Source: Vigna angularis (lineage: Eukaryota; Streptophyta; Magnoliopsida; Fabales; Fabaceae). From it: a DNA stretch of 64,000 nucleotides. The notes under the pieces are model-generated. The model made no database searches. It was not told the DNA's origin and saw only the letters and a list, made by a program, of their open reading frames with translations. The stretch's first letter is position 1. Every line of letters starts with the position of its first letter. The translations under genes were made by a program, and so were the position numbers. Location of the stretch: contig NC_068980.1 in the NCBI RefSeq assembly GCF_016808095.1, positions 10,772,888 to 10,836,887 of the forward strand, in the 5' to 3' direction. Positions 1,187 through 64,000 of this stretch are shown in pieces.

Positions 1187-1734
1187 CATTAGTACAAAAA
1201 TGGTTTTTTATACCTATTAAAAAAGGCTTTTATACCTATTTTTGGGTAGGTATAGAAGCAAGGGGTATAGAAAGTTTAGGATCTTTTATACCTATTATTG
1301 AATCGGTGTAGAATGTTTTACTTTCCATACCTGTGTTATTCATAATAGATATAAAAGTTTTATATTTACACTGAGAAAAAAAATTTCTTTTTATAGCTAC
1401 TAGTGCTATAATAGGTGTAAAAAAACAAGACTTTTTATACATGATGTGGCTTTGACCGGTGTAAAAAGTGACGTTTTTTTTAAAATATTTTATTTGTATG
1501 AACTACTATCCATATTCAGACCTGTATAAGATTCAATCCCAGAATACAGTTTAAATAATCAATAACAAGTAAAATAATCAATATTGTTTTCATTAACACA
1601 TCAAAATGTAATATTTACCTAACAAAGTTCCTAGCTATATTTACCTAACATAGTTACTTAACATATTACACATATAATAGTTCCTAAACTCAAAATGTAA
1701 TATTAAAGCATCCAATCATTTACAAATGGTTAAA

Positions 1735-3200: not shown

Positions 3201-3226
3201 GAATATGATTCAACAAACAAGTACAT

Positions 3227-3763: not shown

Positions 3764-3933
3764 TAAAGTTAAGTTAATCACATATGGGAGATCATATGTT
3801 GTTATTATATGGACTTACATTAAGTGTGTCACTAGACATTTCCCTACATAAATCATTAAGTGTTAATAATAATTAATAGATAAAATAACAAAGCAAAATA
3901 TATAATACATCTAAAATTTCAGTTTATACATTG

Positions 3934-29143: not shown

Positions 29144-29193
29144 ATGTACTTGTTTGTTGAATCATATTCTTTGATATATTTTACAAATATTAT

Positions 29194-30640
29194 TTGGATA
29201 ACTTAGGTAAAATGTATACATTGGGGTCAACCATACACCATGAAACCATTACAACTGATATGATGAGAGTGGTGGTTGTAGACGTACGAAATGCTACAGC
29301 TCGAGTCCCTGTGCCCACTGAGGATGTTCAGACAGTGGGACATGCCCTTGGAAATTTTATCCTTTGGCCCCTTAGATTATCAAGAGCAATTGTAAAGAAG
29401 GTAATTGTTTTAATTATGCACTTTGTTGTTTTTATTAGTAATATTAATATTTTGTAAGTTTTTAAATATGTATACCAGGTTGAAGCACAAGGGCAAGAAG
29501 ATATGAATGAATCACTGCAACAACAGTTGCAGCCGCTACAACACACAATTCTAGAACAACTTGGTGTGTTGGCAGTGAAGATCTCCCTTTCTCCTATAGA
29601 GTTACAAATGCCTCCTGAAGTCACAAACAGGACATCTTCACTCTCTTTCTTCATATGTCAAAGGGATATTTTTGAAATTCTCTCTGGCACTGATATGTTA
29701 TGTATATCAGTACTACAACTTTGGTTGTTATAAGTAAATTTCTACATTTATGAAGTTTAAATATATTCAAGATTTTATTCTAACATTATTCATTTTCAAT
29801 GTTTAAGGTATTTACATCGGTTGACCATTGAAAAGAAGAATGATCACATTTATGGTTTTATTGACCCTGTTGCCATTCAAGGAGTTGGGAATAAAGGTGA
29901 AGAGGTCCAAAACTACCTCTTAGAGGCTTTTGTAAACGGAAAAAAGCAAGTGTACTTAGCACCTTATTTGCAACAGTAAGTATATAATTTTTATTAATAA
30001 AATTTTATTTATGTAAATGTTATTTAACACTATTATTGTTTGAATCTACAGGGGTCACTGGCAATTGTTACTAATTCTTCCTCAACAGTTTCTTGTAGTT
30101 CTCTTATGTTCATTGCACAAAAAACCTCACACTTTGGCAATTAAAATACACTAATATTGTAAGTTTTTAATAATTTATTTGTAGTCTAGACATATCTGAT
30201 TTTACTAAGTTCTCATTTCAATGTACATTTAACTTTATAGAGTGGTTGAGGCATATTCAAAGTTGCAGGGAACACATATCGTCTCTAGAAAGAAGTTGCA
30301 GTTCATTGCACCAACTGTAAGTAGTTAATCTTTCAAACTATAAATACAATTATAAATTTTATGATACTTTATAAATTTAACTTGTATAGTGCTTACGTCA
30401 ACCGGGAAGCTTTGAGTGCGGATATTATGTCATGAGGCACATGCAGAAAATTATATCCTCAAATGTCGTTGACTCATGGAAATTGGTAATGTGAACATTT
30501 TATAACTAAGATCTTAAGCCATTAATATTATAACTTTACTCAAACTATTCATTGTGTAGATATTTGATGACACGTCTCCAATGGAACAACATGTCATAAA
30601 GGATGTTCGGAAGCAATGAGCTGCATTTCTTTTAACCATT
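29194..30640 (+). pseudogene. Ulp1-like cysteine protease region of the CACTA derivative
   Basis: The blocks have the same order as in the 9.9 kb element: a pre-protease exon (29194-29400), a linker exon (about 29480-29732), a short exon (29809-29975), the G-H-W-Q-L-L-L block after a CTACAG acceptor (about 30052), and the E-C-G-Y-Y-V-M-R-H-M block (about 30400-30485). The last block ends at TGA near 30618. The catalytic histidine and cysteine contexts are both present, and the pre-protease stop codon of the other copy is absent here. Exon limits are approximate, and whether it is expressed is unknown. Confidence 0.7.
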
Positions 30641-30972
30641 TGTAAATGATTGGATGTTTCAATATTACATTTTGAGTTTAGGAACTATTTTATGTGTAAT
30701 ATGTTAAGTAACTATGTTAGGTAAATATAGTTAGGAACTTTGTTAGGTAGATATTACATTTTGATGTGTTGATGAAAACAATATTGATTATTTTACTTGT
30801 TATTTGATTATTTAAACTGTATTTTGGGATTGAATCTTATGCAGGTCTGAATATGAATAGTAGTACATACAAATAAAATATTTTTAAGAAAAAAACGTCA
30901 CTTTTTACACCTATTATAGCACCAGTAGGTACAAAAAGAAAATTTTCTCTCTGGAGGACTTTTTATACCTGC

Positions 30973-44431: not shown

Positions 44432-45314
44432 ACCATAACACCACTTTCCGCTCAGCTGCACAAAACCTGTGCAGCTCAGCTATGGCGCACCAGGACAGCA
44501 CTCCTACTTTCTATGCAATTTGGTTCTGTTTTAAGTGGGGCTTGTGATGAATCATTATTTTCTTCACTTCACTTAGTTTATTGTACTAGAATTAATCAGG
44601 GAATTGCACTTAAAAGTCCAGTATTTTCCCATTTTTTACTATTTGTGCTTAACTTGATCGGAAATTCTTATTTTGATTAATTTGAATTGTCTGAAACTAA
44701 TTATTTACATTACTGAGTGCAGGAAAAATTCTGAATGTATTTTAGGACATTTGGAACAATATTTATTTATACAGTGTATTAATTGGAAGAAGCTACGATA
44801 TTTGGTTCATGAAGTTGAGTTTTGGTTTTGTTGCTGGAAGTAATTGGCAAATAAAATGATGGAGGAAACACATTTTCATTCCTTTCTTCTACAAGTATCA
44901 CGGCATAATGGTTCAAAGCCCCCTTTATCTTTTGTCTTTTGCATTCAATAAAATTTGCCAATGGAAATCATGGTGAAGAATACGGTTTTGACAAGCATTT
45001 GGCTAGGAAACACATGGGGGCCGCCACTAATAGAAAGAAATATTGTTCTCAAGAAAAGTATGACACATGAATGGAAAGGGGCCACATTAGAAATGAATTC
45101 ACGGTTTTGAAGAAAGAAGTTACATGGCCATGTAAGCATTTATCAAATTACATATTGTTAGAATAAAAGTGGGAGCCACCACTTATGGAAAGGCCATCTA
45201 CAAATTAATTTAGCAAAGGACAAAAGAAAGAGCCATCACTTGAAAAATCTGAATTTGTTTCGGCTCTTTCATTCCTTTTAGCATTTCCAAGAGACAATAA
45301 GAAAAGAGAAGGGG

Positions 45315-45818
45315 TGTAAGCAAATCTTTAATTTTCAATTAAATGAAAACAACACACAGGATCTTGAATATTCATGATACTCACAATTCCCACAATACAC
45401 AGTAAAAGAGAACTAACCTGGATCCATTGTGCACTTCTTCCTGTCTCTTCCTGTCAAATGTTCTCTCTCCTCTTACTCCTCCTTAATGCCTTCTTGATGA
45501 TATAGAAGTTGTAGGATGGTTTTCTCTATCAGTTTCTCTTCTTTTCTGAGAACGTTACGTTCTCTATATCTCTTCAGAAACTTAATGTGTCAACAACACT
45601 AAAACTCTTTCCTCTTTTATGATATTTTAATTAAATTTAATAAAATACCAAAATGCCCTTTTAGAGTGAGAAGAGAGGGATTAACTTTAATAACTCTAGA
45701 AGTTAATCCCAATAACTTTAATACCTTAATATTCTAATAATCATCACATTAGAATCCTTACATTAAAGTTATACTTTAAATTACATGAACCAATGTAAAT
45801 TATTAATATAATTTAACA
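45315..45818 (-). repeat. 3' LTR of the copia element
   Basis: TGTAAG...TTTAACA on the plus strand; TGTTA...TTACA when read with the element. It is 504 bases and carries a 9-base segment missing from the other LTR. Confidence 0.93.
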
Positions 45819-46187
45819 TTCTCCCACTTGGTTCATGTGATGACTTGAAGATCTAAAATAAACTTTAAGTGCGCACCATTCATTAGAATTATCAAGTCAT
45901 CATCCTTATATGAATTGAAATAATCGGATCATGGCGGGCAAAAGTCATGATTGACAAGATTCCTTCCATGTATCACATAATCAAAACAACTCAACATAAC
46001 TTTAATCAATCTTATAACTTTCATGTCTCTAAAGGAGACCTATCATGTCACCACAATCAATAATACATGTATATAATTTAATGTGGATAACAATAGAATA
46101 AAGAGAAACATAACTTTAATTGAATTCACAAGTGTCATGACAGTACAAGCATATAACTATACATATCTATATAGATAGATAACAACA

Positions 46188-49100
46188 TCATGTTAACATT
46201 GACTTATCCATAATGCCCATACTTTCAACATGGCCAATAAAAGTTTTGGGCGGTAGTCCTTTAGTTAACGGATCTGCTATCATCAACTCCGTACCAATAT
46301 GCTCAATCAACACTCTATGTTTCTGCACTTCTTCTTTGACTGACAAGTACTTCAAATCCATGTGTTTAGCACCCTTTGAGTACTTATCATTTTTAGAGAA
46401 GAAGACGGCTGCAGAATTATCACAATAAATCCTTATCGGCCTAGCTATACTATCAATAATACCAAGCCTCGATACAAAGTTCCGCAACCACAAAGCATGA
46501 ACTGTGGCCTCAAAGCATGCCACGAATTCAGCCTCCATGGTGGAAGTAGCAATGACTGATTGTTTTGCACTTTTCCAAGAAATTGCTCCTCCAGCCAAAA
46601 GATAGACATACCCAAATGTGGATTTTCTTGAATCCACACACCCAGCATAGTCTGAATCCGAATAGCCAATCACTTCGAGATGATCTGACTTTCTATAAGT
46701 GAGCATGTATTCTTTGGTACCTTGTAAGTACCTAAGAACTTTCTTTGCAGCTTTCCAGTGATCCATTCCGGGATTACTTTGATATCGGCCTAACATTCCA
46801 ACAGCAAAACTGATATCTGGCCGAGTACAAGTTTGAGCATACATCAAACTCCCAACCACTGACGCATAAGGAATAGACTCCATGGCCTTTCGTTCCAAAT
46901 CATTCTTGGGACATTGCATTTGACTAAACTTGTCTCCTTTCTGAATTGGAACTATTCCAGGAGAACATTTTTCCATTCTGAATCTCTCTAACACTTTATT
47001 AATATAGCCTTTTTGAGACAAACTTAACAATCCTTGTGATCTATCACGGAATATTTCTATTCCTATCACATAAGATGCCTCATTCATATCTTTCATTTCA
47101 AAGTTGTTAGAGAGAAACTTCTTTACATCATGTAACATACCAATATCATTAGCAGCAAGAAGAATATCATCAACATATAGAACCAAAATAACAAACTTAC
47201 TCCCACTGACCTTTATGTATATACACCGATCAACGGTGTTCTCTACAAAACCATACGAAGTTATGATATCATTAAATTTTAGATACCATTGACGGGAAGC
47301 TTGTTTTAGTCCATATATTGATTTCTTTAATTTACACACTAGATTTTCTTTTCCTGTTATGGTGAAACCTTCTGGTTGGTCCATATAAACTTCCTCTTCT
47401 AAGTCACCATTCAGAAAGGCGGTCTTTACATCCATTTGGTGAAGCTCTAAATCATAATGAGCCACCAAAGCCAAAACAATTCTCAAAGAGTCCTTCTTAG
47501 AAACAGGAGAGAAGGTCTCTTTGTAGTCAATGCCTTCCTTTTGAGTGAAACCTTTGGCGACTAATCTAGCTTTATACCTTTCAATATTGCCTTTTGAGTC
47601 ATGTTTAGTCTTAAAGACCCATTTACAACCGACTCTTTTTGAACCCTTAGGCAATTCAACTAGATCCCATACTTTATTGTCATCCATTGATTTCAACTCT
47701 TCTTTCATAGCATTCAACCAATTCTCTGAATTATTACTTTCCATGGCTTGTCTGAAAGAGACTGGATCCTCATCAATGCTTAAGTCACATTCATGTTCAA
47801 CAGAGTAAACCACATAATCATTCGAAATAGTAGGTCTTTTCTCCCTTACAGACCTTCTTAATGCTGCTTCTTGTGGTTCCTCTATCAATTGCTCATTTAT
47901 GACTTGCTCATTGTCAACTGGCTCAACATTTATACGTTCATTTTGTGGGATTGGAACATTAATTTGTTGTCTCTGCTTGTTGTGTGACTGTGATACAACA
48001 AGAGGGATAACAACTTCAGAAGAGACATTAGATGTAGAAACACTATCAGTATGCTCTTGAATGTCCACTATTCGTGATTCCTCACTCCCACTAAATTGAC
48101 CATTTTCAATGAACCGAGCATTTCCAGACTCAACTATTCTTGTACTATGGTTAGGGCAATAAAATCTATATCCCTTTGACTTTTTAGGATAACCGATGAA
48201 GTAATCGCTAATGGTTCTTGCATCAAGCTTCTTTTCATGTGGATTATATAACCTTACCTCTGCCGGACAACCCCAAACATGAAGATGTCTCAAACTGGGT
48301 TTCCTTCCAGTCCATAGTTCATAAGGAGTTTTAGAAACTGCTTTGCTAGGAACCCTGTTAACCAGATATACAGCAGTCTTTAATGAATACATCCACAAAG
48401 ATAAAGGGATATTACTATGACTTAACATACTCCTAACCATATCCATAAGAGTACGATTCCGCCTTTCTGCTACACCATTTTGTTGTGGTGTACCGGGCAT
48501 TGTATACTGTGCACATATACCCCGACTTTCAAGGTACTTTGCAAATGGACCTGGACATTGTCCACTCTCATCAGTTTTACCATAATATTCACCACCTCTA
48601 TCAGATCTCACCACTTTTACTTTTCTATCTAATTGTCTTTCCACCTCATTTATGAACACCTCAAGGGCATTCACTGATTGAGATTTTTCATGCAATAGAT
48701 ATATATAACAATAACGTGAGAAATCATCAATAAAGGAGATAAAATATTTTTCACCACTCCAAGATTTAATGTCAAAAGGACTACAAATATCAGTGTGTAT
48801 TAACTCAAGAAGTTGACTGCTTCTTGTGGCGGGATTCTTTGATATGTGTTTTGTTTGTTTACCCTTAATACAATCAATACATACATCCCAGTCATCAAAA
48901 TCCAATTGAGGTAAAATTTCATTTTTTACTAACCTCAACATCCTTTCTTTGGATATGTGACCCAATCTTTTATGCCATAAGAAAGCAGAACATTCCTTTC
49001 CTGCACTAGAATTTCTATCAACAACATGTTCAACATTAAACAGGGATTCGGAAAAATTAACATCAAGATTTAAACGGTATAAACCATCCAATAATGTACC

Positions 49101-49643
49101 AGAACCATAATAGTACGAAAGTTTATACAAATGAAAAATACCATTTTCAATCCTAAAGTTAAAACCTAAACAATCCAACTTTGCAACAGAAATCAAATTT
49201 CTAGCACAACCAGGAACATAGAGACACTTTTCAAGATTCAGACAATAGCCAGTGTCTAGAATCAATCTGTAAGTCCCAATTCCTTCTATTCGTGCCTTCA
49301 TTCTGTTCCCCATATATAAATACTTTTTAGTTCCTTTTATGGGCTGGATTGAAAGGAATCCCTGCATAATATTAGAAACATGAGTAGTAGCTCCAGAATC
49401 CAACCACCAGGTATTATTAGGCACTTCAACTATATTTGCTTCAAAATTTACAGAAACATAAAAAGTACCTTTCTTTTCGAACCAAGATTTTCTTTTCGGA
49501 CAATCTTTCTTGAAGTGACCTACTTTCTTGCAAAAGAAACATTTCTGGTCCTTCTGGATACCGCCCTTATTCACTTTCATTTGGGGCTTTGTCCTTCTTG
49601 TTCTTCTTTCCTGATTTACCTTTACTGAAGCTAGCACCTTCAT
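46188..49643 (-). CDS. Ty1/copia Pol polyprotein
   Basis: An open frame of 1151 codons; the first part overlaps the end of gag in another frame. In order: CCHC zinc knuckle (C-F-F-C-x4-H-x4-C, residues 35-48), aspartic protease (W-L-D-S-G-A-T-T-H near 80), GAG-pre-integrase (L-G-H-I-S near 240), integrase core with conserved D, D and E, reverse transcriptase (F-K-T-K-H, then Y-V-D-D near 820) and RNase H (Y-S-D-S-D-Y-A-G near 1010, then E and D) to the usual L-T-K-G-L-P end. This domain order, integrase before RT, defines Ty1/copia. All catalytic motifs are present. In relatives gag and pol form one frame, so the first 25 or so codons are not the natural start. Confidence 0.93.
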
Positions 49644-50274
49644 GAGTTGTGAGATGGATAGAATGATCTCTCATTTTCTTTAATCTCCCTTCCTCTTGAA
49701 CCAACATGGCTTTGATTTCTTGGAAGTTCCACTTATCCTTAATAGTGTTATAATTCACTTGGAACTGGCCAAATTCAGGAGGAAGAGAGTTCATGATGAA
49801 CTGTACTAGAAAAGACTCATTCACCTCCATTCCCATTGACTTCAATCTTGCTGCTATATTAGCCATTCCAGTTACGTGTTCATGTATGGGCTGTGACCAG
49901 TCAAACTTTTTGGTAGTCAGCTCACTCATAAGAGTTCCCACAATAGACTTGTCAGTTATGTCTGATTGTGAATATTCCTTGATCATTTTCATGAATTCCT
50001 TTGCGTTTTCCGTTTTGGGCATGGAAGGCTTTACGTTCTCTGCCATAGACATGCGCATCAAGTTTAATGACAACCTGTTAGACCTATGCCAAGCCTCATA
50101 AAGAGACTTTTCATCACTTGTACTGGTCTCTGTAATGGCTGCGGGCATTTCATCCATCACAATAGCCATATCCAAGTCTAGAACACCCAGTTGGAACTGG
50201 ATTTGTTCTGACCAATCGGCATAATTGAGCCCATTAAACTTGACGACATTGTTGCTCAAACCTGCTAAATTCAT
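49567..50274 (-). CDS. Ty1/copia Gag (UBN2-type)
   Basis: A 235-codon frame beginning M-N-L-A-G-L-S with a typical copia gag fold signature (N-Y-A-D-W near the start, L-P-P-E-F near residue 170). It ends in a lysine-rich tail and TAA at the point where relatives continue into the zinc knuckle. The zinc knuckle is readable one frame over (from about 49560 on pol), so a one-base indel near 49570-49600 has separated gag from pol. Without translational frameshifting the element would make Gag without its zinc knuckle. Confidence 0.9.
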
Positions 50275-51395
50275 GTAAGCTGGAAATAATACAGAAGCTC
50301 ATACATTAATGCTTTGATAAAATTAATGGATTCAAACAAATTACTACACTAGTCATACATTCAAGTTCACCTTTGGGTGACACTTAAACTGATAGGTAGT
50401 CAATAAAGTCATTCATTTAAGTTCACCTTTGGGTGATTCTTAAACTGACAAATTTCATATATATACTTTAATAAACAATCAATCATACTTAAGACTATAT
50501 GTATGCTATCTTTGGATATACAAACATATACTAAGTACATGAAATGTTTCACTTTAATGTCATCAATTATAAACCATGGTTCACCTTTGGGTAATCCATA
50601 ACATCCTTACATCAATGACTAATTATAATATATATTCATAATTAAACATCTTTTATATTATGAATAATTTTCATAATACTATAAGCAACAACTTTTAATT
50701 CATATATAATTTCCATTCAATGCAGTAACAATAACCATGTTCACAGTATAATAATAATATAAGTTGCAACAATAATTGCTTTGTGAAAACATGTTCTGCA
50801 ACGTAAAAAACTTGACAACCAAAATTCGGTTTTTTCGAAAATTCAATTTAAGGGAATTGACTCTTCATGTAGGATTTCAATTTTGGCATATTCATATTGC
50901 ACATTCCAAAATTTTACGTAACATGCAGGAATTAAAGTTTCTTTAATGTTATAATCAAATAAAATAAAATATAACTTACGCCTGGATGAAATCATAAAAG
51001 TGCAACACTTTTAATGCAACTTTAATGCAAATCCCGTGCACCAGAAACCAAATAGAAAAACTTCACAAAAAAAAATTTTCCTTGAATTTAACTTCTTGAA
51101 TTCCCGCGACTGGAGTTGCAATATTAAAATTGCTATGCTATAAGAACAATGCCGCAATATAAATTGCTTCCAAAAAATGAAATTTGGCGCTGGATCAATG
51201 AAGTTGCTTCCAAATAGAACAATGAATAAAAATTTGCAATGAATAAAATTGCGGCTTCGAAATTCATACAGTACAGCAAATTTAATTCTTTCATGCCAAC
51301 AAATATAAAATCCCTAAATTTTATAATTCAAAAAATTAGGGTTTTAAAATTTGGGAATATTACCATTCAAGGAGAATCATAAAATTCAGAACCTG

Positions 51396-51407
51396 GCTCT
51401 GATACCA
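51396..51407 (-). promoter_or_regulatory. Copia primer-binding site (tRNA-iMet)
   Basis: On the minus strand TGGTATCAGAGC, two bases inside the 5' LTR, is the classic initiator-methionine tRNA primer site. Confidence 0.97.
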
Positions 51408-51409
51408 CT

Positions 51410-51904
51410 TGTAAGCAAATCTTTAATTTTCAATTAAATGAAAACAACACACAGGATCTTGAATATTCACAATTCCCACAATACACAGTAAAAGAGAACT
51501 AACCTAGATCCATTGTGCACTTCTTCCTGTCTCTTCCTGTCAAATGTTCTCTCTCCTCTTACTCCTCCTTAATGCCTTCTTGATGATATAGAAGTTGTAG
51601 GATGGTTTTCTCTGTCAGTTTCTCTTCTTTTCTGAGAACGTTACGTTCTCTATATCTCTTCAGAAACTTAATGTGTCAACAACACTAAAACTCTTTCCTC
51701 TTTTATGATATTTTAATTAACTTTAATAAAATACCAAAATGCCCTTTTAGAGTGAGAAGAGAGGGATTAACTTTAATAACTCTAGAAGTTAATCCCAATA
51801 ACTTTAATACCTTAATATTCTAATAATCATCACATTAGAATCCTTACATTAAAGTTATACTTTAAATTACATGAACCAATGTAAATTATTAATATAATTT
51901 AACA
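51410..51904 (-). repeat. 5' LTR of the copia element
   Basis: A 495-base copy nearly identical to 45315-45818, next to the primer site. Confidence 0.93.
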
Positions 51905-54242
51905 AGGGGACCACGTGGAAGCAAATTCACGGTTTTGTTGGAAAAAATGCCCATCACTCATTTCACAATTGCCTTTGAAACAATACACATCCACACGGGT
52001 TTGGCTTGGTCCAGCAAGAATATCTATCTTGGTTTGCAATCCAGCACTTTGGAATAAAAGAGGGTGTCTCGGCCTTGCTGGAAGAAGCTCACGGTTTTCT
52101 GCATCCATTTGGCTGGAAGATGTTGAGCAAACCAGTAGCTTGGGAGATGAGGAGGCTAAGGTTGGTGTCTTGGAATGAAGAAGATGACAACAGGAGGTGC
52201 TCACGGTGGCTGCTGGAAGTAAAGAAGAAGGATGATGCTGAGAGAAAGAAGGAGTTTGACAGCCTTCATCCAGCAAAGTGGCCCTAGCAAGAAGCTACCA
52301 CATACACGGCTGGAGCAACCACTGTCCAACTGCAGATTCACACTGAGATGGATGTCTTGGACGAAGGCTCCTCTCTACTGGAATGGTGTGTGTTTGAATG
52401 GAGTCAAGGGAAGCAGCTCACGGTCTTGGGCTGGAAGGAAGAGCACACGCCGCTTGTCACGACAAGTCACCACGGGTGATGAATTCTGAAAAGGAAGCTC
52501 CAACAGTAACTCACGCCTATCACTTGAAGAAGAAGAAGCTGGACCAGCAGCTTCATGGTATTCCAGCAACGTCCTCCATCAGCAGCATCGGCAGCAGCAC
52601 CATCAACACCAGCAGCAGCTGCACCAGCAGATGGCAACACATCCAGCAGCTTTGAAACCCATGGCTGCACGTCACGCTCCACCATCCAGCAGGACTTCAC
52701 GTTCCTGCTACTGCCACAAGCAAAAAGAAAATAGAAAGGAGTTCACGTCAATGGGCTTCATGGAGAGAAAGCTGGGACAGGTCGGAGCCACCACCTGAGA
52801 ACACGGTAGCAAGCTTTGAGGATGTCCATCACCTTAATCCAGCAACCAACGTCCAAGCATGGAGAATTGTTTGGAGATTTTCGGTCCAGGATTGAAGCTT
52901 ATCCAGCGCTTCATCACGGTTCTGCACATTTCACGTCCAGCTGGAGCAAGCTAGGGAGAAGATGAGAGAAAACTCACGCCCCATGGAGCAGCAGCCACCG
53001 AGAGAAGAAATGTTTAGACAGCAGCACGGCCTTCACCATCCAAAGCTTGGGGGGCACTCACAACACACATCCAGCCACCGAGATGGAGAGAGTTTTTATT
53101 AGGGATGAAAGGAGAGCAGCACGTTGATATAAATTGTGCCTGTCACGGCTGGGTCCAGTAGGAGAATGTATAGGAAGTGGTGGTTGATGAAGTGTTGAGT
53201 TCATTTGAAGAGCTGCACGGTGACGGCATGAAGCACACGTCCAGCCACCAAAACGGAATAAGAGGTGCTCACGGACCAGAAGCAAACAGCTGAAGAGAGC
53301 CCATACACTAGGGAATCATTTGTTTATTTGGTATGGGAGTGTTTTGTTTTGTCTGCATGTAGGAAATGGGAGAAAAGTGGTGAACTCTCATTCATTATTG
53401 GCACGTTAGAAGCAAGGGGACAAAAACTAGGAATGAAATGTGGGAAAAGAATGTCTCAGCAATTAGACCCACACTCACATTCTCGGCACTGTATGGGCAG
53501 CAACACCATGTTTCGTCCAAGAGCATAGGGAGGAGTGCACTTTCAAGAATAAAAGGAGTAGGAATTCCAGAGGAGAGCAGACGGTTTTGGAGGCCTGGAA
53601 GAGGCTCTCGGTTCTTTCTCTTCCAGGAGCTCTCCCTCTCAGTTTTCCATTCTTTGAAACAGTGCAATAATGTAGAAATTTATTTCCGAAGCATGTAATG
53701 TGTCATTGTAGTAGTTTGCTCATTTCAGTTTTATTTTTTTTTATCTTCACTCTTCTAGAATTTCAAGAATTTTATGTCTAAGTGTTGAATCCTTGATGAA
53801 TTTCATTTAAGTGTTTTATTTTTGTTATCTGTTCATTTTACCGTTTATGATTTTCTACACCGTTAAATTCTATCATTGTGTTTTACTGTTCATGTTCATG
53901 TTATTTTCAAGAGTCGTGTTTACCGGTTATTTTTACTGATGTTTTTGGTAAATTTCAACACTGCGTAATTTTTCATTTTCTGATTTTACCGTTTTTACCG
54001 TATGGCTTTTATTGTGGTTAAAATTTATTTCAACGTTTTTTTAAATTCTATTTAATTTTCAGTCCACTTTAATTTTATCGCATCCAAACAAAATCACAAA
54101 AACACCCCCCCACTTCGTGTTAGATCTAAGACTGAACCATAAATTGGTCCTTGAGAGACGACCTAGGAGTCACTTCCTGGTAATATACTGCATATTTTCG
54201 TGCAATCAACTTTTGCGAGAGGCGCGACCCTCTCGTCAAAAA

Positions 54243-54260
54243 TGGCGCCGTTGCCGGGGA
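54243..54260 (+). promoter_or_regulatory. Primer-binding site of the gag-only element (tRNA-Asp type)
   Basis: TGGCGCCGTTGCCGGGGA lies four bases after the LTR end. It is the same class as the site at 39395. Confidence 0.93.
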
Positions 54261-54699
54261 CCAATGACGGTTTGGTTTTAGATTTTTGTTGTGTAAATTT
54301 TTGTTTTGTTAATATGTGTGTTTTGTGTGTTTTGTCTTGTATATTTTTGTAGGCGACAACGACACCTTCAGCAAATTTTGGCGGCGTTGTCACTTCAGTC
54401 CAGGTTCTTGTTTTAGATTTTTACTGTTTTTGTTTTATTACGTGGTTGTAATATATGTTTTGTCTTTTATATTTTTATTGTCTTTTATTTTGTATCTAGC
54501 TGTTGTAAAAAAAAAAATTTCTTTCTTGTTTGTGCATGTAGCATGTATAAATGTGTTGTGTTTTGTTTAGTGGTTGTTTTTGGAAGTTTTAATTGATGTA
54601 AATACTGGTTTTCCCCATGTTATGTTTCTATATTTTTTATAATTCTTGCTTGAAGTGAAAGTCCAGGTCTGAGATAGGTTTTGAACTAGAATAGAGAAA

Positions 54700-55944
54700 A
54701 TGACAGATTCTCAAGACTGGATGTATGAGCTAGTCAAGAGTCTTCCCAATTTCCATGGGTTGGCACATGAAGATCCATACAGGCACCTCAAGGAGTTTTG
54801 TTTGATGTGTTTATCTATGAGGCCTGCTGATGTTTCAAAGGAGATAATGTTGATAAAAATGTTTCCCATGTCCCTTCAAGATGAAGCAAGAGACTGGTTC
54901 ATATACCAGTATCCTTTTAATAGTTGGCAGGAAACACAACGAAAATTCCTCGACAAGTTCTTTCCAACAGCAAGGGTGATCAGCATTTGGAGGAAGATCA
55001 CTGCCATTGAGCAGTTTCAAGAGGAAAGCCTGGCAGATTATTGGGAGAGGTTTAACAGGCTCTGCATAACTTGTCCGAACCACCAAATTCCAGAGCATTT
55101 GCTCTTGATTTATTTTTATGAAGGGCTCCTGGACAGTGAAAGGATACTTGTGGATGTAGCTTCTGGTGGATGTTTGATGGATATAACCCCAACAGAAGCG
55201 AGGAAGTTGCTCTACAAGCTGGCTGGTGAAAGTCCAATTGATGTAGCAAAGGAAGAACCTGAGCAACCTGTTCTGGATTCTAACACTGATAGCCTTGAGG
55301 ATACAGATGATAACTTGGAGTTTGGTAAGAAACTTTTTAGTGAGCAAAAACAGGTTTATTCTGAACCTGATATTCCAATTACTTTACCCGATTTGCAGAC
55401 ACATTCAATTGCATGTGATTTGACGCACACTGATTCTATAGGGTTTATGACTGATACTGATACAAATTTGATTGACCATTCTAAAATTTTTAATTCAGTG
55501 TCAGCCATTGAACCCATTGGTGAAAGTAGCATCAATATTGATTTTGAAAGAGAAACTGTGCATTCTGATGATTTTATAGAGTTAGGACTAAACTTTGATT
55601 TAACACAGTTTTCTGAAAATTTTGAATGTGATTGTGAATCTGGTGCTTGCTCCATTTGTACTGAAATTGATTATGCGTTACAACCAGACTCTAAGTTTAT
55701 AACAGGTGATATTAATTGTGAGTTTGATGATAAGGATGCAGAGTTAAAAGAGAATGCAGGTGCTGACATTAAGAAATTAATGATTGCTGAAGAAGAGTAT
55801 ACTGCTACGAGAAGAAAGAAGAAACATTTTGCTGCGGATGATAGGGCAATACTGATGACACAATTTCTCCTCAAAATTTCTCTGCTAAATCCAATGGTGG
55901 AAGGCATCTCCCTGATTGTCCAAATTTGGCAACTGCCACCATGA
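54700..55944 (+). CDS. Retrotransposon Gag, stand-alone
   Basis: A 414-codon frame beginning M-T-D-S-Q-D-W. Residues about 10-185 form the plant Retrotrans_gag domain (L-P-N-F-H-G-L near the start, A-R-D-W-F near residue 65, F-L-D-K-F-F-P near 87). The remainder is an acidic, low-complexity tail with many Asp, Glu and Ser. There is no zinc knuckle, protease or RT, and the sequence downstream has no pol remnants. The element must therefore use enzymes supplied in trans, perhaps from Athila relatives such as the one at 30973. The frame is undamaged, which with near-identical LTRs suggests that Gag is maintained. Confidence 0.85.
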   Translation: MTDSQDWMYELVKSLPNFHGLAHEDPYRHLKEFCLMCLSMRPADVSKEIMLIKMFPMSLQDEARDWFIYQYPFNSWQETQRKFLDKFFPTARVISIWRKITAIEQFQEESLADYWERFNRLCITCPNHQIPEHLLLIYFYEGLLDSERILVDVASGGCLMDITPTEARKLLYKLAGESPIDVAKEEPEQPVLDSNTDSLEDTDDNLEFGKKLFSEQKQVYSEPDIPITLPDLQTHSIACDLTHTDSIGFMTDTDTNLIDHSKIFNSVSAIEPIGESSINIDFERETVHSDDFIELGLNFDLTQFSENFECDCESGACSICTEIDYALQPDSKFITGDINCEFDDKDAELKENAGADIKKLMIAEEEYTATRRKKKHFAADDRAILMTQFLLKISLLNPMVEGISLIVQIWQLPP

Positions 55945-56634
55945 CCAGGGAGCACTCTTTTTTTTCCTCATTATGTACATATTATTTAGCTTTTCTGGTA
56001 TGTTTTCATGGTTGCATTTATTTCATTTTAATTTTTTTTTAAATTGTGAGCATGAACAAAAAAAAAATTGTGTTTTTGTGTTTTAGTTGCTTCATGATTT
56101 TTAGTGTTTTACTAAAAAGAAAAAATTTCGAAAAAAAAAATTTGGTTTTGCGTAGTCATTTTTTTTCGACCCTCAGTTTCATTAGAGGCTCACCTTCAGC
56201 CCATTTTTTTATTTTATTTCATACAAATAATTCATAAAAATTTTTGTTTATTATTTTTGCTTCTGATCTCAATTTTTCCTTCACTGTAAATAAAATTTCT
56301 TAGTCGTTTCATACTCAGAATTGATTGAAAATTTTTAGACTAAGAAATTATTTCATTCATAATAGCAAAATTACAGTAATGAAGAAATGGAGATCTGAAA
56401 ATAAAATTGCAGTAGATATATGAAAATAAAGATGTTCGATGTTCGATCAGTAATGATCGTTAATTTTACACACCAAAATAAAAAAAAAATAATAAAAAAA
56501 AACATAAAAAAAACATAAAAACATAAAAAAAAAAATAATTGTCCATATTACACGCCTTATTCAAATTCTGGCCACACTCGGCCAATAAAAACATAAAAAA
56601 AATAATAATAAAAAAAAATAAAAAATACAAAACA
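55945..56634 (+). other. Non-coding interval between gag and the antisense homeobox gene
   Basis: It is very AT-rich with several A-runs. Read from the minus strand it would be the 3' flank of the homeobox gene, with TTGAATAAGG near 56560 as a possible polyadenylation signal. Nothing coding is seen. Confidence 0.6.
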
Positions 56635-57950
56635 TTAAAAACGAAAGTTGTTGCTGGGTGGAGTTCTTAAGGTAAGCTCCGTCGAGGGAGCTCTGGTTCG
56701 GAATGTAGGAGGCCTAGGCGGAGGGATTTCTCGTTCATCTCTGTCGTCGTCGATGATGATGGGAATGGGGAACAGATCCAGCAGCCTCGGTGCCTTCATA
56801 ATCACCCAGTCATATTCTTTCAATAAAAAAACAAATAAAATAAAACTTGTGTTAATAATTGTAGAGGAAAGAAAAAAAAAATTCAATAAAATAGAGGTGA
56901 TCAGAGTTCTTACCATACATATATAGCGGCAGTTGTGAAAAGAGAGTGCCAGTGGGGTCTATCTCTGCTTGCCAGCGCCTGACCCGATTGCCGTGGTTGT
57001 TGAACCAGCAGTGTACATTGTATTCAGTGGCTTCGCCGAAAGCCCTTAGTCGAGACGCAATCTCGACGACTTGAGCTCTGCTTGGATGTGTGACCCCATA
57101 GTTGTATATGTTGGTCATCATCTTGGTCTGATCTTCGGTAGGACGCCACCGCTGACTGGTGTATCTCTCTGATTCCATCTCACTCATCATTCCTCTCGTA
57201 ATATTCTAAAAATAAAAATAAAAATAAAATAAAAAGAACAAAAACAGAATAATAATAATAAAAAAAAACAAAACAAAATAAATTGCATAACATATAAAAA
57301 AATTAGATTAGTTCTGTGTTTTCTTTATTTGTTCTTGTTTCCTGTTAGATTTATTTTTTTGTCCTGTCAGTCTTTGATGATTCAGTGTTTGGTATCAGAT
57401 CTGTTTCACGGTCCTTGCAAAAGGGTCCTAAATAGATCTACGTCCAGTTGTCCTTGTCCTTGTTGTTCTTGTAATTTAAGTTTCTGTGTTTATTTAGTTT
57501 TAAGTGGGGTACGTGGCGTTGTTCTACCCGATTGTCTCTGCAATACCTTCAATCGAAGGGAGATTAACGTCTGGTTTCCAGCCGATATACCCCTTAAGTT
57601 TTAGGACATGTGTGTTTTAAGTGTTTTCAGTTTAGTATTAAAAAAAAAGGCGAGGAGAAGATGAACTGCGTAAAAAAAAAAAAATTGGACAGCATAACAG
57701 AAGAAAAAAAATTGGAAAAGAAGAAAAGAGCAAGGCAGAAAAAAAATAAATAAAGGAAAGCAGGAAAAGGGAGAGCAGGAAAGAGGTCAGAGAAGAAAAA
57801 TTATGGAAAGCAGGAAAGCAAGAAGGTAATAATAGCAGAAAAATCGGCAAAGAAAGGAAAGAAGGAAAGAAGTAAGGTGCCGAGGAGTTACCCGGAGTAG
57901 TAGGGTTGGCAGGGAAGCTCGTCGGAGGATTCGGACGCCTTCGGAGACAT
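56635..57950 (-). CDS. WUSCHEL-type homeobox (WOX-like) gene, antisense within a retrotransposon
   Basis: Proposed exons on the minus strand: 57950-57892, 57194-56914 and 56816-56635, giving 173 aa. If translation starts at the ATG at 57190, 152 aa result. The second exon encodes a WUS-type homeodomain with the family spacing: R-W-x-P-T-x2-Q, I-Y, G-V, H-P-S, Q-V, R-L-R-A-F-G, N-V, W-F-N-N-H, R-V-R-R. The invariant helix-3 Asn is kept, while the usual Q-N-H-K-A-R context has become N-N-H-G-N-R. The third exon has L-L-D-L-F-P-I, close to the WUS-box T-L-x-L-F-P, and E-L-T-L-R near the end, EAR-like. The 97-base second intron is canonical (GTAAGA...AAAG); the first intron's acceptor is weaker. 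Function is inferred only: a nuclear DNA-binding developmental regulator or a competitor of one. Confidence 0.8.
57640..57880. repeat. Polypurine-rich tract
   Basis: About 240 bases are overwhelmingly A and G on the plus strand (GGAAAG and GCAGGAAAG units recur). It falls inside the proposed first intron of the antisense homeobox gene, where it reads as a polypyrimidine tract. Confidence 0.8.
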
Positions 57951-58058
57951 GGGGGCAGAGCTCTTCGCAGATCCAGATGCTCAGAGGAGAGAGGAAGAGA
58001 GAGAAGGGAGGATTAGAGTGAGAGACTAGGTCAGGAAATGTTGCTCGACGCCGAGATT

Positions 58059-58073
58059 GGCCTATTTATAGGT
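58059..58073 (-). promoter_or_regulatory. TATA box and CT-rich start region of the antisense homeobox gene
   Basis: On the minus strand ACCTATAAATAGGCC contains a strong TATA box. It is followed, 30-100 bases downstream, by a CT-rich stretch (about 58030-57965) typical of plant leaders, and by an ATG at 57950. This spacing is that of a normal plant core promoter and supports antisense transcription independent of the LTR. Confidence 0.65.
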
Positions 58074-58091
58074 AAATTGTTTCCACTGTAG

Positions 58092-58124
58092 CAACAGTTT
58101 CGGTCATTGCCACCGAAACTGTTG
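58092..58124. repeat. Perfect 13-base inverted repeat upstream of the antisense TATA box
   Basis: CAACAGTTTCGGT and ACCGAAACTGTTG flank a 7-base spacer. It lies 20-50 bases upstream of the antisense TATA box, so it could be a palindromic protein-binding site or a stem-loop. Confidence 0.85.
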
Positions 58125-58205
58125 TCACAGTACCAGTTTCGCTTTTTTTTTAAAAAAATAAAAAATAAAATAAAAAAAAAATTAATTAAAAAAAAATATT
58201 AATTA

Positions 58206-58280
58206 GCATCTACTGATGGGTGCTAGGTGATTTAGACATCTGCTGATGGATGTCATTAATAACATCTACTGATGGATGTT
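58206..58280. repeat. Three direct copies of a short palindrome
   Basis: Units of the type ACATCTACTGATGGATGT occur at about 58206, 58236 and 58262; each has ends that pair with one another (ACATC/GATGT). They lie between the homeobox promoter and the 3' part of the element. Confidence 0.8.
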
Positions 58281-58289
58281 ACTGAAAAA

Positions 58290-59324
58290 TTTCTTCCCAT
58301 TTTTCCTAACCTTTTATTGCACTTGTCTATATTATTTGACTGCTCTGAAATTGTTAATCTGATGATTGTAACACACTGAGGACATTGTGTGATTTAAGTG
58401 TGGTCTACTGCGGAGAAATTCTGATTTTTCTGTTAGTTTCTGTTTTGTGTGTTAAATTTTTTGTTTTTGAGTGTTAAATTTTTTCTGTTTTAAGTTATTT
58501 TTATCAAGTTTTGTGTGCAATAAATTTTACATTTTTCTCTTGATTTCTGGATGATGTATAAGTTGTAGATTTTTCCTTCACTTACTTAATACTTATAGTT
58601 TGTAATCCTTGCTTTTCTCTGCCGGGAAAGATGATTATGTGTTTAAGAGGTTGATTTAATCGTGACAAAAATACCCTGTGTGAGATTTGAGCAGCCACTT
58701 AATTTTCTTTCTTGTGTGTGATATGTATCTTGAATGCTTGCACATATGCCTTGGCTTGATTCTTTTTGATATACTTGATTGATATGCATGTTCAGACGTG
58801 ATAAAGGCATTTTTGTTCTTGAGCCTCTTTAGCCAAATAAGCCTACCTTGTTATTATCCTTTGATAACCCCTTTGAGCCTATACTGTATATATTTCTTTG
58901 TGTTGAAGCTCATACACTGATCCTAAGTGAAAAACAAATGATTACCTTAACCTTAGGAAAGTCTGGAGCTATAGAAGTATTTAGTGAATAAGTGTGGTCT
59001 CCTTGGGAATTTTGATGAATTGGCTAGTTGGTTCCTCATCATGTTTTGAAATGATAATTTATATCCTGTTGTGTGATAAAAAAAAAAACTAAAAAAAAAA
59101 TGAAATTGAAAAATAATCGTGTGAATAATGGAGTCGAGAAGATGATTGAATTAGAGGTTTGGGTGAGATTTCACTGTGTTTACACTTGTTCCCCAGTGCT
59201 CCTCTATTTCTTCTGAGCTGTAACTACTTATCCATATTTATCCTCCCCTGTCCTTGGCGCCATTACAACCCTTAAAGACCTTTAGATCTGAACATGCATA
59301 TGTTTTAAGTGTTGATATTAGAAG
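58290..59324 (+). other. 3' internal region of the gag-only element
   Basis: No coding region is seen. A polypurine-like phrase (GATTTAAGTGTGGTCTAC, about 58391-58408) resembles the one directly before the 3' LTR (about 62803-62818), so there may be two second-strand priming sites. The region continues at 62432-62818 after the solo LTR. Confidence 0.6.
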
Positions 59325-59329
59325 CTTGC

Positions 59330-62300
59330 TGATACGCGGGTCACACCGCATACAAATTTGATTGCATAAAAGAATGGAGTATAGTCTAGGATTTGACTCC
59401 TAGGTCGTCTCTCAAGGACCAAATTGCTGGTTCAGTCTCAGATCAAACACGAAGTGGGAGGTTTGTGATTGTTTTTTGTTGCGGAAAAATGTAAATGTTG
59501 AAAGCAGTAAATTAACAAACCGTAAAAATGAAATTACAGCAACATAAAACAGTAAAAATAAATCTGGGACAGTAAAAACGAAAATACAGAAAAACAGAAA
59601 ATATAGAAAACAGTAAATACAGAAAACAGTGAAAACAGAATACAGAAAATTTTAAAAAACAGTAAAAACGAAAATACAGTAACATGAAACAGTAAAAATT
59701 AAATCTGGAACAGTAAAATCGAAAAGATAGTAAAACATAAAATACAGAAAACTGTAAAAACAGTAAAACAGTAAAACAGTAAAAACAAAAGATGAAATTA
59801 CAGCAGTAAATAATAACAGTAAAAACAGTAAGTACAGAATTTTCAAAATCAGTAAAATAGTAACAGCAAAATACAGAAAACAAAAATACAGAAAACAGTA
59901 AATACAGAAAATGGTAAATTGGGAAAACAGTAAAAAAGACTCAAAATTACTGCAGTAAAATACAGGAAATAAAATTACAGTAAATGCTCAACATGCAAAA
60001 ATAAAGAAGAGCAGAAATTAAATTGCAGAAAACAACAATTGAAATTGAATTACAACAGAAATTAAATTACAGCAGTAAAAAGAGACAGTAAAATCTGAAA
60101 TTTAAAAACAGAATTTGAAATCCTTCTAAAACTTACCTCATGTGCCGTGACAAATTTGCTTGGTTTCATTGAAAGGATAATTGCAAATGAACATCCAAAA
60201 CCGTAAGCATCCAACATCTATATCAATTTAATTTACAAAGAAAACATACCTCTTTTTAGCACTTCTTGTCATCTTTTGAATCGAAAACCGATTTGAATTT
60301 TATTCTCCATAACATAAGCAAGGTGCACATCATTACATTTCACTGTATTCTTTCTCAAAAAACACTAAAGAAGAGTCAAATTTAAATGCAAGAAAAGGTC
60401 CCTCATGGACTAAATGCTCATGAAATTTTAAGAGGAAGAAAAATGATGACTTCTTACCAATCAAGGTTGCTTTTCACGTACACACACATCTACTTCCCAC
60501 TAAATTACTTCTTCATCTTCAAACAATTAATTATATGCTTACCATTCCAGCCATGATATCAACTCTTCCTTTCCTTCTTAATTAAAACAAAATCAAAGAT
60601 GCATTAAAAGAGAAGGAGCTTTGACAATTTCCATATGTTACCAATTGCTTTGTTTTTATTTTTTACTTCTTACAACTTTAAAATAAAATCATGAATCAAT
60701 ACTTCATTACTTACCTCAAAACAGCCATGAACATTCAACCTTAAACCATAAAAGGATTCAACCAAAAACTTACCAAAAAAACAAGCAAATGAAAGAAGAA
60801 GAATAACACTTACACATCCGTTGGTTTTTTTCAGCACAAGTGAATAGAATGAAACACTTCCAAATTGAAATTACAATGCTTATAAAATTACAACAACAAC
60901 TTACAAACTCAAAATACAAATTAATACCAAGATGAAAACAGTAGATGAATGAAAGCTTAAATGGAAAAAGTGTACAAAACCAAAGGTGAAGGCACCAAGA
61001 ACTTCAAGCTACATCATCCTTCATTCTTTCTAGCAATCATGGTTTTTCTCATCCAACTCCAAAAATCTTCTTTCTTTCCTTGGTTTCCCCCCACGGCTCT
61101 CTCTTTCCCCAACTCAGAAAAAAAAAACAGAATGGTTTCTTTCTTCCACACTCAAAATGATGATGATTTCCTTAGTGGATGGAGCCCTCAAAGTAATGGA
61201 GTACTTCCACTAGCTCCCCTTTTCTGCTGAACCAAGAATTGTTGCAGCTGGAAAGTGAAGTTTTTGCTGCTGGAAAGTGAAGCTCTCTTGCTTGTGTTAA
61301 ATCCATTGGCTTCCATGGGTGTGATGGCTGCTGAGAGTTATGATTCCTTTGGTGCTCCACTTCACCTTTCCATGAGCATGTGCTAATAAAATAAAGGAAG
61401 CAAGACTCCATTCAATGTTGGCTGCCCATTTCCACGTGAATGTGTGCTCTTTCATGGGTCTTTTGCTTTCTTTGCTTTGGGTCCACTTGTCCCATGCTCT
61501 CCTTGGTTGGATGCTTCATGTGACACACCAAAGATGTTCCAAAATAATTCTCTATGTGCTTCATGTATGAATTGGAAGAGTGTTTCAAATTCAGAAAATT
61601 TGTGGCAGCACCTTTATGCTTCATTCCATCATCCATGTACATTGTTTGTGCAACAATATTCACATAAAACTTTGTGTGCTTATGTGCTTGGTTTCCAATT
61701 CATTTCAATTGTGAGATGCATCTCTAAGCCAATACTTTGATATTCCAGCCACCACAAATACCAAACAACAAGTAAATGCAAACAGATTAAAAATCACTCA
61801 AACAGTGTGTACTAGACTGACATAGGATAGTAAAATAAATACTGGGAACAGCACAAAACGAATTTGAACAAAGTAAAAACTATACTTGAAAATAGACATC
61901 TAGACGAAACCGTGAAAAAATATTTCATGCAAAACGGATAAGAATTGAACTCAAACGAAGACACACAACTTGACACAAAATTCATGCAGCAATGGACTGA
62001 CATAGAAGAGTTAAAAAAATTACTGGGAACATTACAGAAATAATTCTATCAAAGTAAAAACTATACGTGAAAATAGACATCCATACAAAACTATGAAAAA
62101 AAATGGCATAGAAAACGGATAAGAATTGGACTCGAACGAAGAAATACAAGTTGACACAAAATTCAAACAGCAACCAGCAAAAATTGAAATGCTTAAGATG
62201 AAATTAGCTCAATTGTTATTTTTCATTTAGCCTTCAAATGTCCCAAATTGTATCTCCAAATTTTCCTTGTAAAATAATTGGCTCAGATAATTCAAATTAG

Positions 62301-62431
62301 TTAAAATAAGAATTTTCGATCAAATTTAGCACATTTAGGAAAAACAGGATAATACTATACATTCAAGCATAATTCCTTGATTAAATCCGGTACAATAAGC
62401 TAAGTGAAGTGTATAAAATATCGACTCATCA
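59330..62431 (-). repeat. Inverted solo LTR of the same family
   Basis: Read on the minus strand it starts TGATGAGTCGATATTTT and ends with the reverse complement of TGATACGCGGG. It matches the host element's own LTR along its length (3102 against 3099 bases) with clear divergence. The target duplication CTTGC is at 59325-59329 and 62432-62436. No internal sequence remains, so LTR-LTR recombination is the simplest origin. The AC/AG-rich low-complexity part (59520-60110) corresponds to the TTTACCGTTT-rich end of the LTR. Confidence 0.93.
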
Positions 62432-62818
62432 CTTGCCAAGTCTACTTGTGTTTGTTTTCTTGAGTGCATTGAGTGACATTGATTTACCTTAAACACTTGA
62501 GAGAAACACTCTAGTGCATCTGTGAGGTTTTGTTATTTTTTGAATCACCTCTTGAACTGATTAATCATTTTGCTATGTATTGAATTGCTTGGATGATTTC
62601 TGTAAGTTTGTGCTTTTCTTGATTTTGTGTTGGAAAATTTCTACTTCTTTTCTCTGTCCAAAATTCTGGAGAACTGTGTAAATTCTGTTTATTTTTCTCG
62701 TGAGTCTTAGTTTCTGTCTGCTGAGTTTTTGTGTCATACACCTAATGTCCTTTGAACCATTCCCTGATTTGAGTCTTGATTTTGCCCAGGAGTGCAAAAG
62801 ATTAAGTGTGGTCTATTT

Positions 62819-64000
62819 TGATGAATCATTATTTTCTTCACTTCACTTAGTTTATTGTACTAGAATTAATCAGGGAATTGCACTTAAAAGTCCAGTATTT
62901 TCCCATTTTTTACTATTTGTGCTTAACTTGATCGGAAATTCTTATTTTGATTAATTTGAATTGTCTGAAACTAATTATTTACATTACTGAGTGCAGGAAA
63001 AATTCTGAATATATTTTAGGACATTTGGAACAATATTTATTTATACACTGTATTAATTGGAAGAAGCTACGATATTTGGTTCATGAAGCTGAGTTTTGGT
63101 TTTGTTGCTGGAAGTAATTGGCATATAAAATGATGGAGGAAACACATTTTCATTCCTTTCTTCTACAAGTATCACGGCATAATGGTTCAAAGCCCCCTTT
63201 ATCTTTTGTCTTTTGCATTCAATAAAATTTGCCAATCGAAATCATGGTGAAGAATACGGTTTTGACAAGCATTTGGCTAGGAAACACATGGGGGCCGCCA
63301 CTAATAGAAAGAAATATTGTTCTCAAGAAAAGTATGACACATGAATGGAAAGGGGCCACATTAGAAATGAATTCACGGTTTTGAAGAAAGAAGTTACATG
63401 GCCATGCAAGCATTTATCAAATTACATATTGTTAGAATAAAAGTGGGAGCCACCACTTATGGAAAGGCCATCTACAAATTAATTTAGCAAAGGACAAAAG
63501 AAAGAGCCATCACTTGAAAAATCTGAATTTGTTTCGGCTCTTTCATTCCTTTTAGCATTTCCAAGAGACAATAAGAAAAGAGAAGGGGACCACGTGGAAG
63601 CAAATTCACGGTTTTGTTGGAAAAAATGCCCATCACTCATTTCACAATTGCCTTTGAAACAATACACATCCACACGGGTTTGGCTTGGTCCAGCAAGAAT
63701 ATCTATCTTGGTTTGCAATCCAGCACTTTGGAATAAAAGAGGGTGTCTCGGCCTTGCTGGAAGAAGCTCACGGTTTTCTGCATCCATTTGGCTGGAAGAT
63801 GTTGAGCAAACCAGTAGCTTGGGAGATGAGGAGGCTAAGGTTGGTGTCTTGGAATGAAGAAGATGACAACAGGAGGTGCTCACGGTGGCTGCTGGAAGTA
63901 AAGAAGAAGGATGATGCTGAGAGAAAGAAGGAGTTTGACAGCCTTCATCCAGCAAAGTGGCCCTAGCAAGAAGCTACCACATACACGGCTGGAGCAACCA
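62819..64000 (+). repeat. 3' LTR of the gag-only element (cut by the window end)
   Basis: It begins TGATGAATCATT and is uninterrupted at the point where the 5' copy carries the copia element (63584-63588). About 1.9 kb of it should lie beyond the window. Confidence 0.92.

Follow-up and report, generated by a model that had tools for sequence, protein, structure and literature searches.

A WUSCHEL-type gene carried antisense in LTR retrotransposons of adzuki bean: a candidate accessory gene of the elements

The 64,000-nucleotide stretch of adzuki bean (Vigna angularis) DNA analysed here, hereafter the window, contains a long terminal repeat (LTR) retrotransposon that carries on its minus strand a gene for a WUSCHEL-type homeodomain, followed by a WUS-box-like LLDLFPIP and an EAR-like ELTLR (Table 1). 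With two LTRs, a primer-binding site, gag and no pol, the element belongs to the gag-only, non-autonomous (TR-GAG) type; between the LTRs (54239-62818) the longest stop-free stretch other than gag itself measures 182 amino acids (aa) and lies antisense within gag. We take the primer-binding site, TGGCGCCGTTGCCGGGGA, to be the complement of plant tRNA-Asp, an Asp-type site being presumably a hint, and a hint only, of the Athila lineage, as the element itself has no reverse transcriptase. A first repeat scan had set the start of the element at 51904; the true start is 44545, the left LTR being split by a nested Ty1/copia element. The right LTR begins at 62819. Of the 1182 positions at which the two LTRs can be compared (770 + 412), 6 differ, and at an assumed rate of 1.3e-8 per site and year the element would be about 0.2 million years old.

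The antisense gene has four exons, with GT..AG at every junction and 579 nt in frame. Its 46-nt exon 2 is present in all 21 aligned rows (the window and 20 other loci, the alignment used for splice sites and leader), and the exon 2 peptide also occurs within gene model P0035 of another locus. Because exon 2 restores the frame, the four-exon model replaces a direct join of exon 1 to exon 3. A two-exon start from the exon 1 ATG was rejected: at the first AG it is out of frame with the exon at 57205, and this ATG is unique to the window among the aligned rows. From the alignment, exon 1 is probably a leader; the common start is a methionine in exon 3 (isoleucine in L021), which gives a product of 151 aa. 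The splice signals are conserved at donor 2 (GT in 21 rows) and acceptor 3 (AG in 21), and nearly so at acceptor 1 (AG in 20) and donor 3 (GT in 20). Between the TATA box and the exon 1 ATG runs a CT-rich leader, in which a bacterial-type promoter scan, uninformative for a plant, returned nothing. A second, LTR-started transcript form is predicted, because public model LOC128194728 (P0002), which matches the locus exactly, begins at 60217 in a nested solo LTR. That solo LTR sits upstream of the gene in the same orientation and supplies the model's first exon. The first-pass annotation of this DNA had described a young, gag-only element with an antisense homeobox gene, and the Retrotrans_gag match, the LTR pair, the lack of pol and the six LTR differences all agree with it. 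Its gene structure also stands as regards the homeodomain exon, the 97-base intron, the WUS-box-like and EAR-like motifs, the TATA box, the CT-rich leader and the ATG exon; it had overlooked exon 2, and the exon 1 ATG finds no support as a conserved start.

Table 1. Coordinates of the antisense gene, its host element and the nested insertions in the window.
Feature	Position	Strand	Basis and remarks
TATA box TATAAAT of the antisense gene	58070-58064	-	Sequence; 18 of the 21 aligned rows have a readable TATAA[AG]
Exon 1, with ATG at 57950	57950-57892	-	Sequence and alignment
91-nt block, exon 2 and start of intron 2, closed by GGGGTA/TACCCC	57595-57505	-	Most conserved part of the cassette
Exon 2, 46 nt	57592-57547	-	Restores the reading frame
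Exon 3	57205-56914	-	Common start Met at 57187
WUSCHEL-type homeodomain	57151-56975	-	Pfam, PDB, AlphaFold/Foldseek
Intron 3, 97-base GT..AG	56913-56817	-	Sequence
Exon 4, ends in TAA at 56635	56816-56635	-	Sequence
WUS-box-like LLDLFPIPI	56784-56758	-	Sequence; across 21 copies, 10 of the stretch's 14 columns do not vary
EAR-like ELTLR	56679-56665	-	Sequence; dN/dS 0.13 in the stretch
gag-only LTR retrotransposon carrying the gene	44545-64000	+	LTR matches 44545-45314 / 62819-63588 and 51910-52321 / 63589-64000; right LTR extends past the window end
Left LTR, piece 1, begins TGATGAATC	44545-45314	+	6 mismatches against 62819-63588
Left LTR, piece 2	51910-54238	+	412 bases inside the window identical to 63589-64000
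Primer-binding site TGGCGCCGTTGCCGGGGA	54243-54260	+	Sequence
gag open reading frame, capsid domain only	54700-55944	+	Pfam Retrotrans_gag 1.6e-14
Ty1/copia element nested in left LTR	45315-51904	-	Target duplication AGGGG (45310-45314 / 51905-51909)
Nested solo LTR, related family, 3102 bp	59330-62431	-	Target duplication CTTGC
First exon of public model LOC128194728 (P0002)	60217-60137	-	Inside solo LTR; donor GAG|GTAAGT; joined to exon 3; exact six-frame match

The product scores 29.0 bits against the Pfam Homeodomain profile (cut-off 22.9) and matches WUSCHEL (1.2e-10) and STENOFOLIA (1.4e-10) in the PDB on its own sequence, or at 4e-15 and 7e-15 with a profile of A1. A search with the 152-aa product returned 64 protein clusters at E <= 0.01, all named Vigna angularis, of which the closest, P0002, is identical over all 152 aa. 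The AlphaFold model of P0002 contains the three homeodomain helices, with confidence (pLDDT) blocks of 92-98 over residues 51-100 and mostly low values in the remainder, and a Foldseek search with it gives WUS or STENOFOLIA in every one of the top 11 rows. A homeodomain fold is predicted for the product, and its homeodomain is of the WUS type found in WUSCHEL-related homeobox (WOX) proteins, which act in plant stem-cell control, with WUS and STENOFOLIA as best matches. The WUS-box consensus is T-L-x-L-F-P; the window reads L-L-D-L-F-P and the C-type relatives P0072-P0077 read T-L-D-L-F-[PS]. Judged by the EAR consensus, an EAR-like ELTLR or ELSLR stands in 21 of 21 intact copies, where 9 of 14 columns are invariant. 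The recognition helix differs from that of host WUS (WFNNHGNR versus WFQNHKAR).

Relatives of the product form three subfamilies, A (the window), B (P0052 and others) and C (P0072-P0077 and others), and include V. radiata and V. umbellata rows and a V. mungo fragment; none were found in viral contigs and plasmids. In a rough homeodomain tree of 63 columns with two outgroup rows, the Vigna rows separate from 14 host WUS-clade rows as a clade of their own (98/95, with the bootstrap not settled). This tree puts the family inside no host clade that would point to a donor, and deeper placement is beyond its reach. One V. umbellata relative, P0071, continues from a B-type homeodomain exon into a different Pro/Ala-rich C-terminus (PF28140), which may be either an exon captured by a host gene or a fault of annotation. 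In public annotations several members appear under the names WUSCHEL-related homeobox 1, 2, 4, 5 or 8, and WOX family counts in Vigna annotations are probably inflated.

Across a genome of 448,266,875 bases, in which the window occupies 10772888-10836887 of contig C11, exon 3 is found in at least 150 copies spread over 11 contigs: the best 150 of 621 candidates, which were those scored, are 88-100% identical and all except one (149/150) free of stops. The best 25 rows for subfamily B have 69-96% identity (7 with stops), and the best 33 for subfamily C have 80-97% (11 with stops). The window gag has 53 rows among the matches listed, its own included, with at least 373 aa aligned. At least 31 of the 53 have an exon-3 or block match within 4 kb, a lower bound given that the other 22 have no nearby match among the matches listed. 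The match lies on the opposite strand in 31 of 31, and in each of 26 cases out of 26 exon 3 follows gag on its 3' side, at a distance of 0.69-1.13 kb. Since both relations hold without exception, the layout in the window is that of a whole family. On contig C6, exon-3 copies follow one another on one strand at regular spacings of about 8.82 kb (890918-917659) and 8.25 kb (1947086-1972123), and look like tandem arrays of whole elements.

These data bear on whether the gene belongs to the elements at all. The public annotation of some members as WUSCHEL-related homeobox genes would suit a family of host WOX genes that lie by chance among transposons, a reading to which we give next to no credence: it is refuted by the co-location with gag in 26 cases and with LTR pairs, between which the gene lies in the window and in L012, L013 and L015, and the exon copies are too many and too dispersed for it. 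A transduced host gene, which would be in the same sense as gag, intronless and present in one or few copies, was likewise rejected, the gene here being antisense, retaining its introns and having at least 150 exon copies.

Substitution patterns indicate that the protein is under purifying selection, acting on the amino acids of the homeodomain, WUS-box and EAR motif. The gene is open in 21 of 22 loci, and the 210 pairs formed by these 21 intact copies, among them the near-identical L009/L010, L018/L019 and L025/L026, give a ratio of non-synonymous to synonymous divergence (dN/dS) of 0.164, with a 95% range of 0.114-0.233 from a bootstrap over codons. Within the protein, the ratio is 0.15 for the N-terminus, 0.11 for the homeodomain, 0.10 for the linker, 0.14 for the WUS-box, 0.13 for the EAR motif and 0.25 for the C-tail, and rises to 0.57 in the acidic/proline linker; invariant columns number 14 of 15 in helix 3 and 3 of 15 in the acidic linker. 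An independent estimate came from five public protein models that read the exons in a wrong frame. Their unique changes, 35 synonymous and 15 non-synonymous, correspond to an omega of 0.19 against a neutral synonymous share of 0.30 (p 8e-9), or 0.25 with strong methylated-cytosine weights (p 3e-6), and placebo frames had no synonymous excess (8:40 and 0:3).

It could be argued that a WOX gene was captured once and has merely been carried since, its open frames reflecting youth, and the LTR pairs are indeed so young that a recent copy would still appear intact. Yet synonymous divergence from the window reaches 0.78 with the protein kept, motif by motif, and placebo frames lack such a pattern; this explanation is largely refuted and we consider it very improbable. 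Because selection has kept the key parts of the protein copy after copy, the transposons likely use the gene for their own spread. The first-pass annotation thus fared well in calling the product WOX-type, as Pfam, the PDB and Foldseek bear out with a homeobox match of 29 bits over a cut-off of 22.9, and in looking to other copies for open frames (21/22 loci, 149/150 scored exon-3 matches) and a dN/dS far from 1 (0.16).

The most conserved part of the cassette is the 91-nt block around exon 2, which runs from AAGGGGTATAT to ACGTACCCCA and is half intronic. Mean pairwise identity is 96-97% in the block, 89% in exon 3, 82% in the rest of intron 2 and 66% in intron 1; 12 of the 91 columns vary among 12 distinct sequences of that length, and in the genome search the best 40 of 469 candidates, those scored, were all 99-100% identical. 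In subfamily B the block is recognisable at two loci, neither of which matched the window at the DNA level in its coding exons. Such conservation would fit a role of the nucleic acid itself, with the antisense transcript or the block regulating the element through double-stranded RNA, splicing or packaging and the protein being secondary, as would the single compensatory double change, seen in L012, L013 and L015, of a hairpin at the donor of exon 2. However, three motifs of the protein are under purifying selection at the amino-acid level, and the folding of the block gives unremarkable z-scores on the gene strand (-1.2 for 101 nt and -0.5 for 90 nt) and modest ones on the opposite strand (-2.1 and -1.5), with no Rfam match at E <= 1 over 54000-63000. 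We regard this account as unlikely. RNA structure as such was rejected for the block: the covariation comes from one lineage, one pair is broken in two sequences and the z-scores are weak, so that no structure is claimed. A role in splicing or RNA handling would be a guess.

To follow the cassette beyond the window family, we compared 9.8 kb around each of 20 further loci chosen from 177-bp homeobox matches (E 3.8e-6 to 1.4e-5). The cassette is present in all 20, and blastn found the window gag in none of them within those 9.8 kb. In nine loci (L009, L012, L013, L015, L017, L021, L024, L028 and L029) similarity to the window element is limited to about 58171-56398. Long open reading frames (ORFs) run on the strand antisense to the gene in L009, L010, L021 and L028; those of the last three contain Pfam reverse transcriptase, RNase H and integrase domains, and L009 is nearly identical to L010. 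In L028 a DUF7745 ORF, gag-protease and reverse transcriptase-RNase H-integrase precede the antisense gene in that order, within a region that does not reach the 3' LTR; the gene is thus on the 3' side of pol in L028, and in the window it is 3' of gag, before the right LTR. The DUF7745 ORF, upstream of gag in the pol-bearing WOX element (L030, positions 2-1750), matches at E 3e-131. L017 has a different gag antisense to the gene, and L024 a similar ORF. L012, L013 and L015 have LTR stretches that are 99.96, 99.80 and 99.86% alike over 2773, 2027 and 2864 bp, and an initiator-methionine (iMet) primer site on the strand opposite the gene; between their LTRs no ORF of 150 aa or more was found except frames overlapping gene or leader. 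The iMet site is on the opposite strand in the B-type locus L032 as well. L014 shares the start of the window's right LTR and the internal region, with a sense gag-protease ORF of another element at the expected place of gag. By sequence, the same antisense WUSCHEL-type cassette is common to at least three retrotransposon families: gag-only, large pol-bearing gypsy, and gag-less with an iMet site.

A mosaic copy bears on how the families came to share the cassette. L029, compared with six loci besides the window, has 94-98% identity to the window in exon 3, but this falls to 72% in intron 2 and to 73% where exon 4 ends. Its closest relative is L023 over the first part of intron 2 (95%) and L012 over the end of exon 4 (93%). 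A single ancestral antisense-WOX element could instead have given rise to all families by vertical descent, with LTRs, primer sites and gag diverging past recognition and no exchange; the gene is antisense on the 3' side of gag or pol wherever this can be determined, and exons and introns 2 and 3 can be aligned in all 21 rows. The primer site, however, is of the Asp type in the window and of the iMet type in L012, L013 and L015, and the flanks are unlike. We find vertical descent doubtful and favour exchange of the cassette between families because of the L029 mosaic, the unlike primer sites and the unlike flanks. Transfer would most likely have occurred by template switching between co-packaged RNAs.

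Collectively, these findings lead us to favour an antisense accessory gene of LTR retrotransposons, with a probability of roughly 0.6: a selected WUSCHEL-type factor whose cassette, made up of leader, introns and coding exons, occurs in at least three families and which is predicted to act as a nuclear repressor favouring the spread of the elements. The gene would be transcribed from its own TATA promoter. Because it is antisense, its introns and promoter would not be spliced out of the element's genomic RNA and would be copied at every transposition. The protein would enter the nucleus, bind DNA through a recognition helix unlike that of host WUS and recruit TOPLESS-type co-repressors via its WUS-box and EAR motif, and host stem-cell and germ-lineage cells may in this way be held in a state permitting transposition. 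A broader possibility, which we put forward tentatively, is that unrelated Vigna LTR retrotransposons share an exchangeable antisense module in which a repressor of the stem-cell type is combined with a promoter of its own and a conserved leader element. Such a module would keep meristem or germ-lineage cells open to transposition, as a plant counterpart of retroviral accessory genes built on a master regulator of development.

Several observations weigh against the accessory-gene reading. The choice of the 20 loci by homeobox match favours copies whose exon 3 is intact, a bias that does not extend to exon 4, and the orientation of gene relative to element is not settled for L011, L016, L018-L020, L022, L023, L025-L027 and L029. 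The L016 copy is interrupted by a stop. Among the aligned rows, donor 1 is GT in 17 of 21, donor 3 reads AT in L024, and acceptor 2 is AG in only 14, this last in an AT-rich and uncertain part of the alignment. The A-type WUS-box has L where the first T is usual. Known WUS site motifs show no enrichment in either the LTR or the internal region, so that direct binding of the protein to the element is without support. Expression and function of the gene are predictions.

Of the insertions nested in the window element, the Ty1/copia element has an LTR pair 97.6% alike (3 mismatches and one gap opening), with RVT_2 and rve in an ORF at 46188-49670. The solo LTR is absent from the related locus L014, which runs unbroken over the insertion site with a 5-base overlap. 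Elsewhere in the window, an inverted repeat pair (1431-3819 / 28551-30938) is 95% identical over 2397 bp.

WOX genes between LTRs are already known in Vigna. A passage of a 2023 meeting report (K. Naito, PMC10714607) describes their amplification between LTRs in V. marina and V. riukiuensis, with more than 1000 copies in the latter, and the resemblance to the window extends to the many WOX copies, the LTR flanks with target duplications and the shared genus. On orientation, gag or pol content, gene structure, tests of selection and sharing between families that passage is silent, and V. angularis is not among the species it names; new here are the antisense orientation, the presence of one cassette in several element families and the evidence that the protein is selected. 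The first-pass annotation, which saw one element and knew of none with a WOX architecture, was right about the antisense WOX element; several elements have the cassette, and a Vigna precedent exists. The literature searched held no report of a WOX-bearing LTR element besides PMC10714607: a WOX expansion in V. reflexo-pilosa is described with no transposon link in the text seen (PMC10357499), and the part seen of PMC10149957 is silent on the subject.

Additional ORFs that lie antisense between pol and the 3' LTR (aORF-3R) are described for Grande, RIRE2, Retand and PvRetro13 in excerpts of PMC7264820, PMC11963269 and PMC4093653, the last two with no mention of homeobox or WUSCHEL in those excerpts. 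As in the window family, their antisense gene lies 3' of gag/pol (PMC7264820), and gene23 of Grande is described, in the text seen, as having its own promoter and a nuclear product. According to the same partial source, aORF-3R products contain TRP28, SMC or no known domain and have no clear similarity to other proteins (PMC7264820), whereas the Vigna gene encodes a recognisable transcription factor, has introns and bears a signal of selection at the level of single motifs. In orchids, Ogre-like elements offer another case of a host-like functional domain fixed in gypsy elements, there a different one, an AlkB-type RNA demethylase; homeo, WUSCHEL and WOX do not occur in the text (PMC9289625). 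Compared with WUSCHEL and STENOFOLIA, the Vigna protein is alike in its predicted homeodomain fold and its WUS-box-like and EAR-like motifs, and differs in its length of 151 aa, its altered recognition helix, its separate clade (98/95, rough) and its transposon-borne state. If the accessory-gene reading is true, it would also account for inflated WOX gene counts in Vigna annotations, and selfish elements can make developmental regulators part of a common toolkit. The antisense genes of plant LTR elements have been puzzling, with products unlike anything of known function (PMC7264820); with a product from a transcription factor class whose job is known, selected motif by motif, the role of such genes becomes directly testable.
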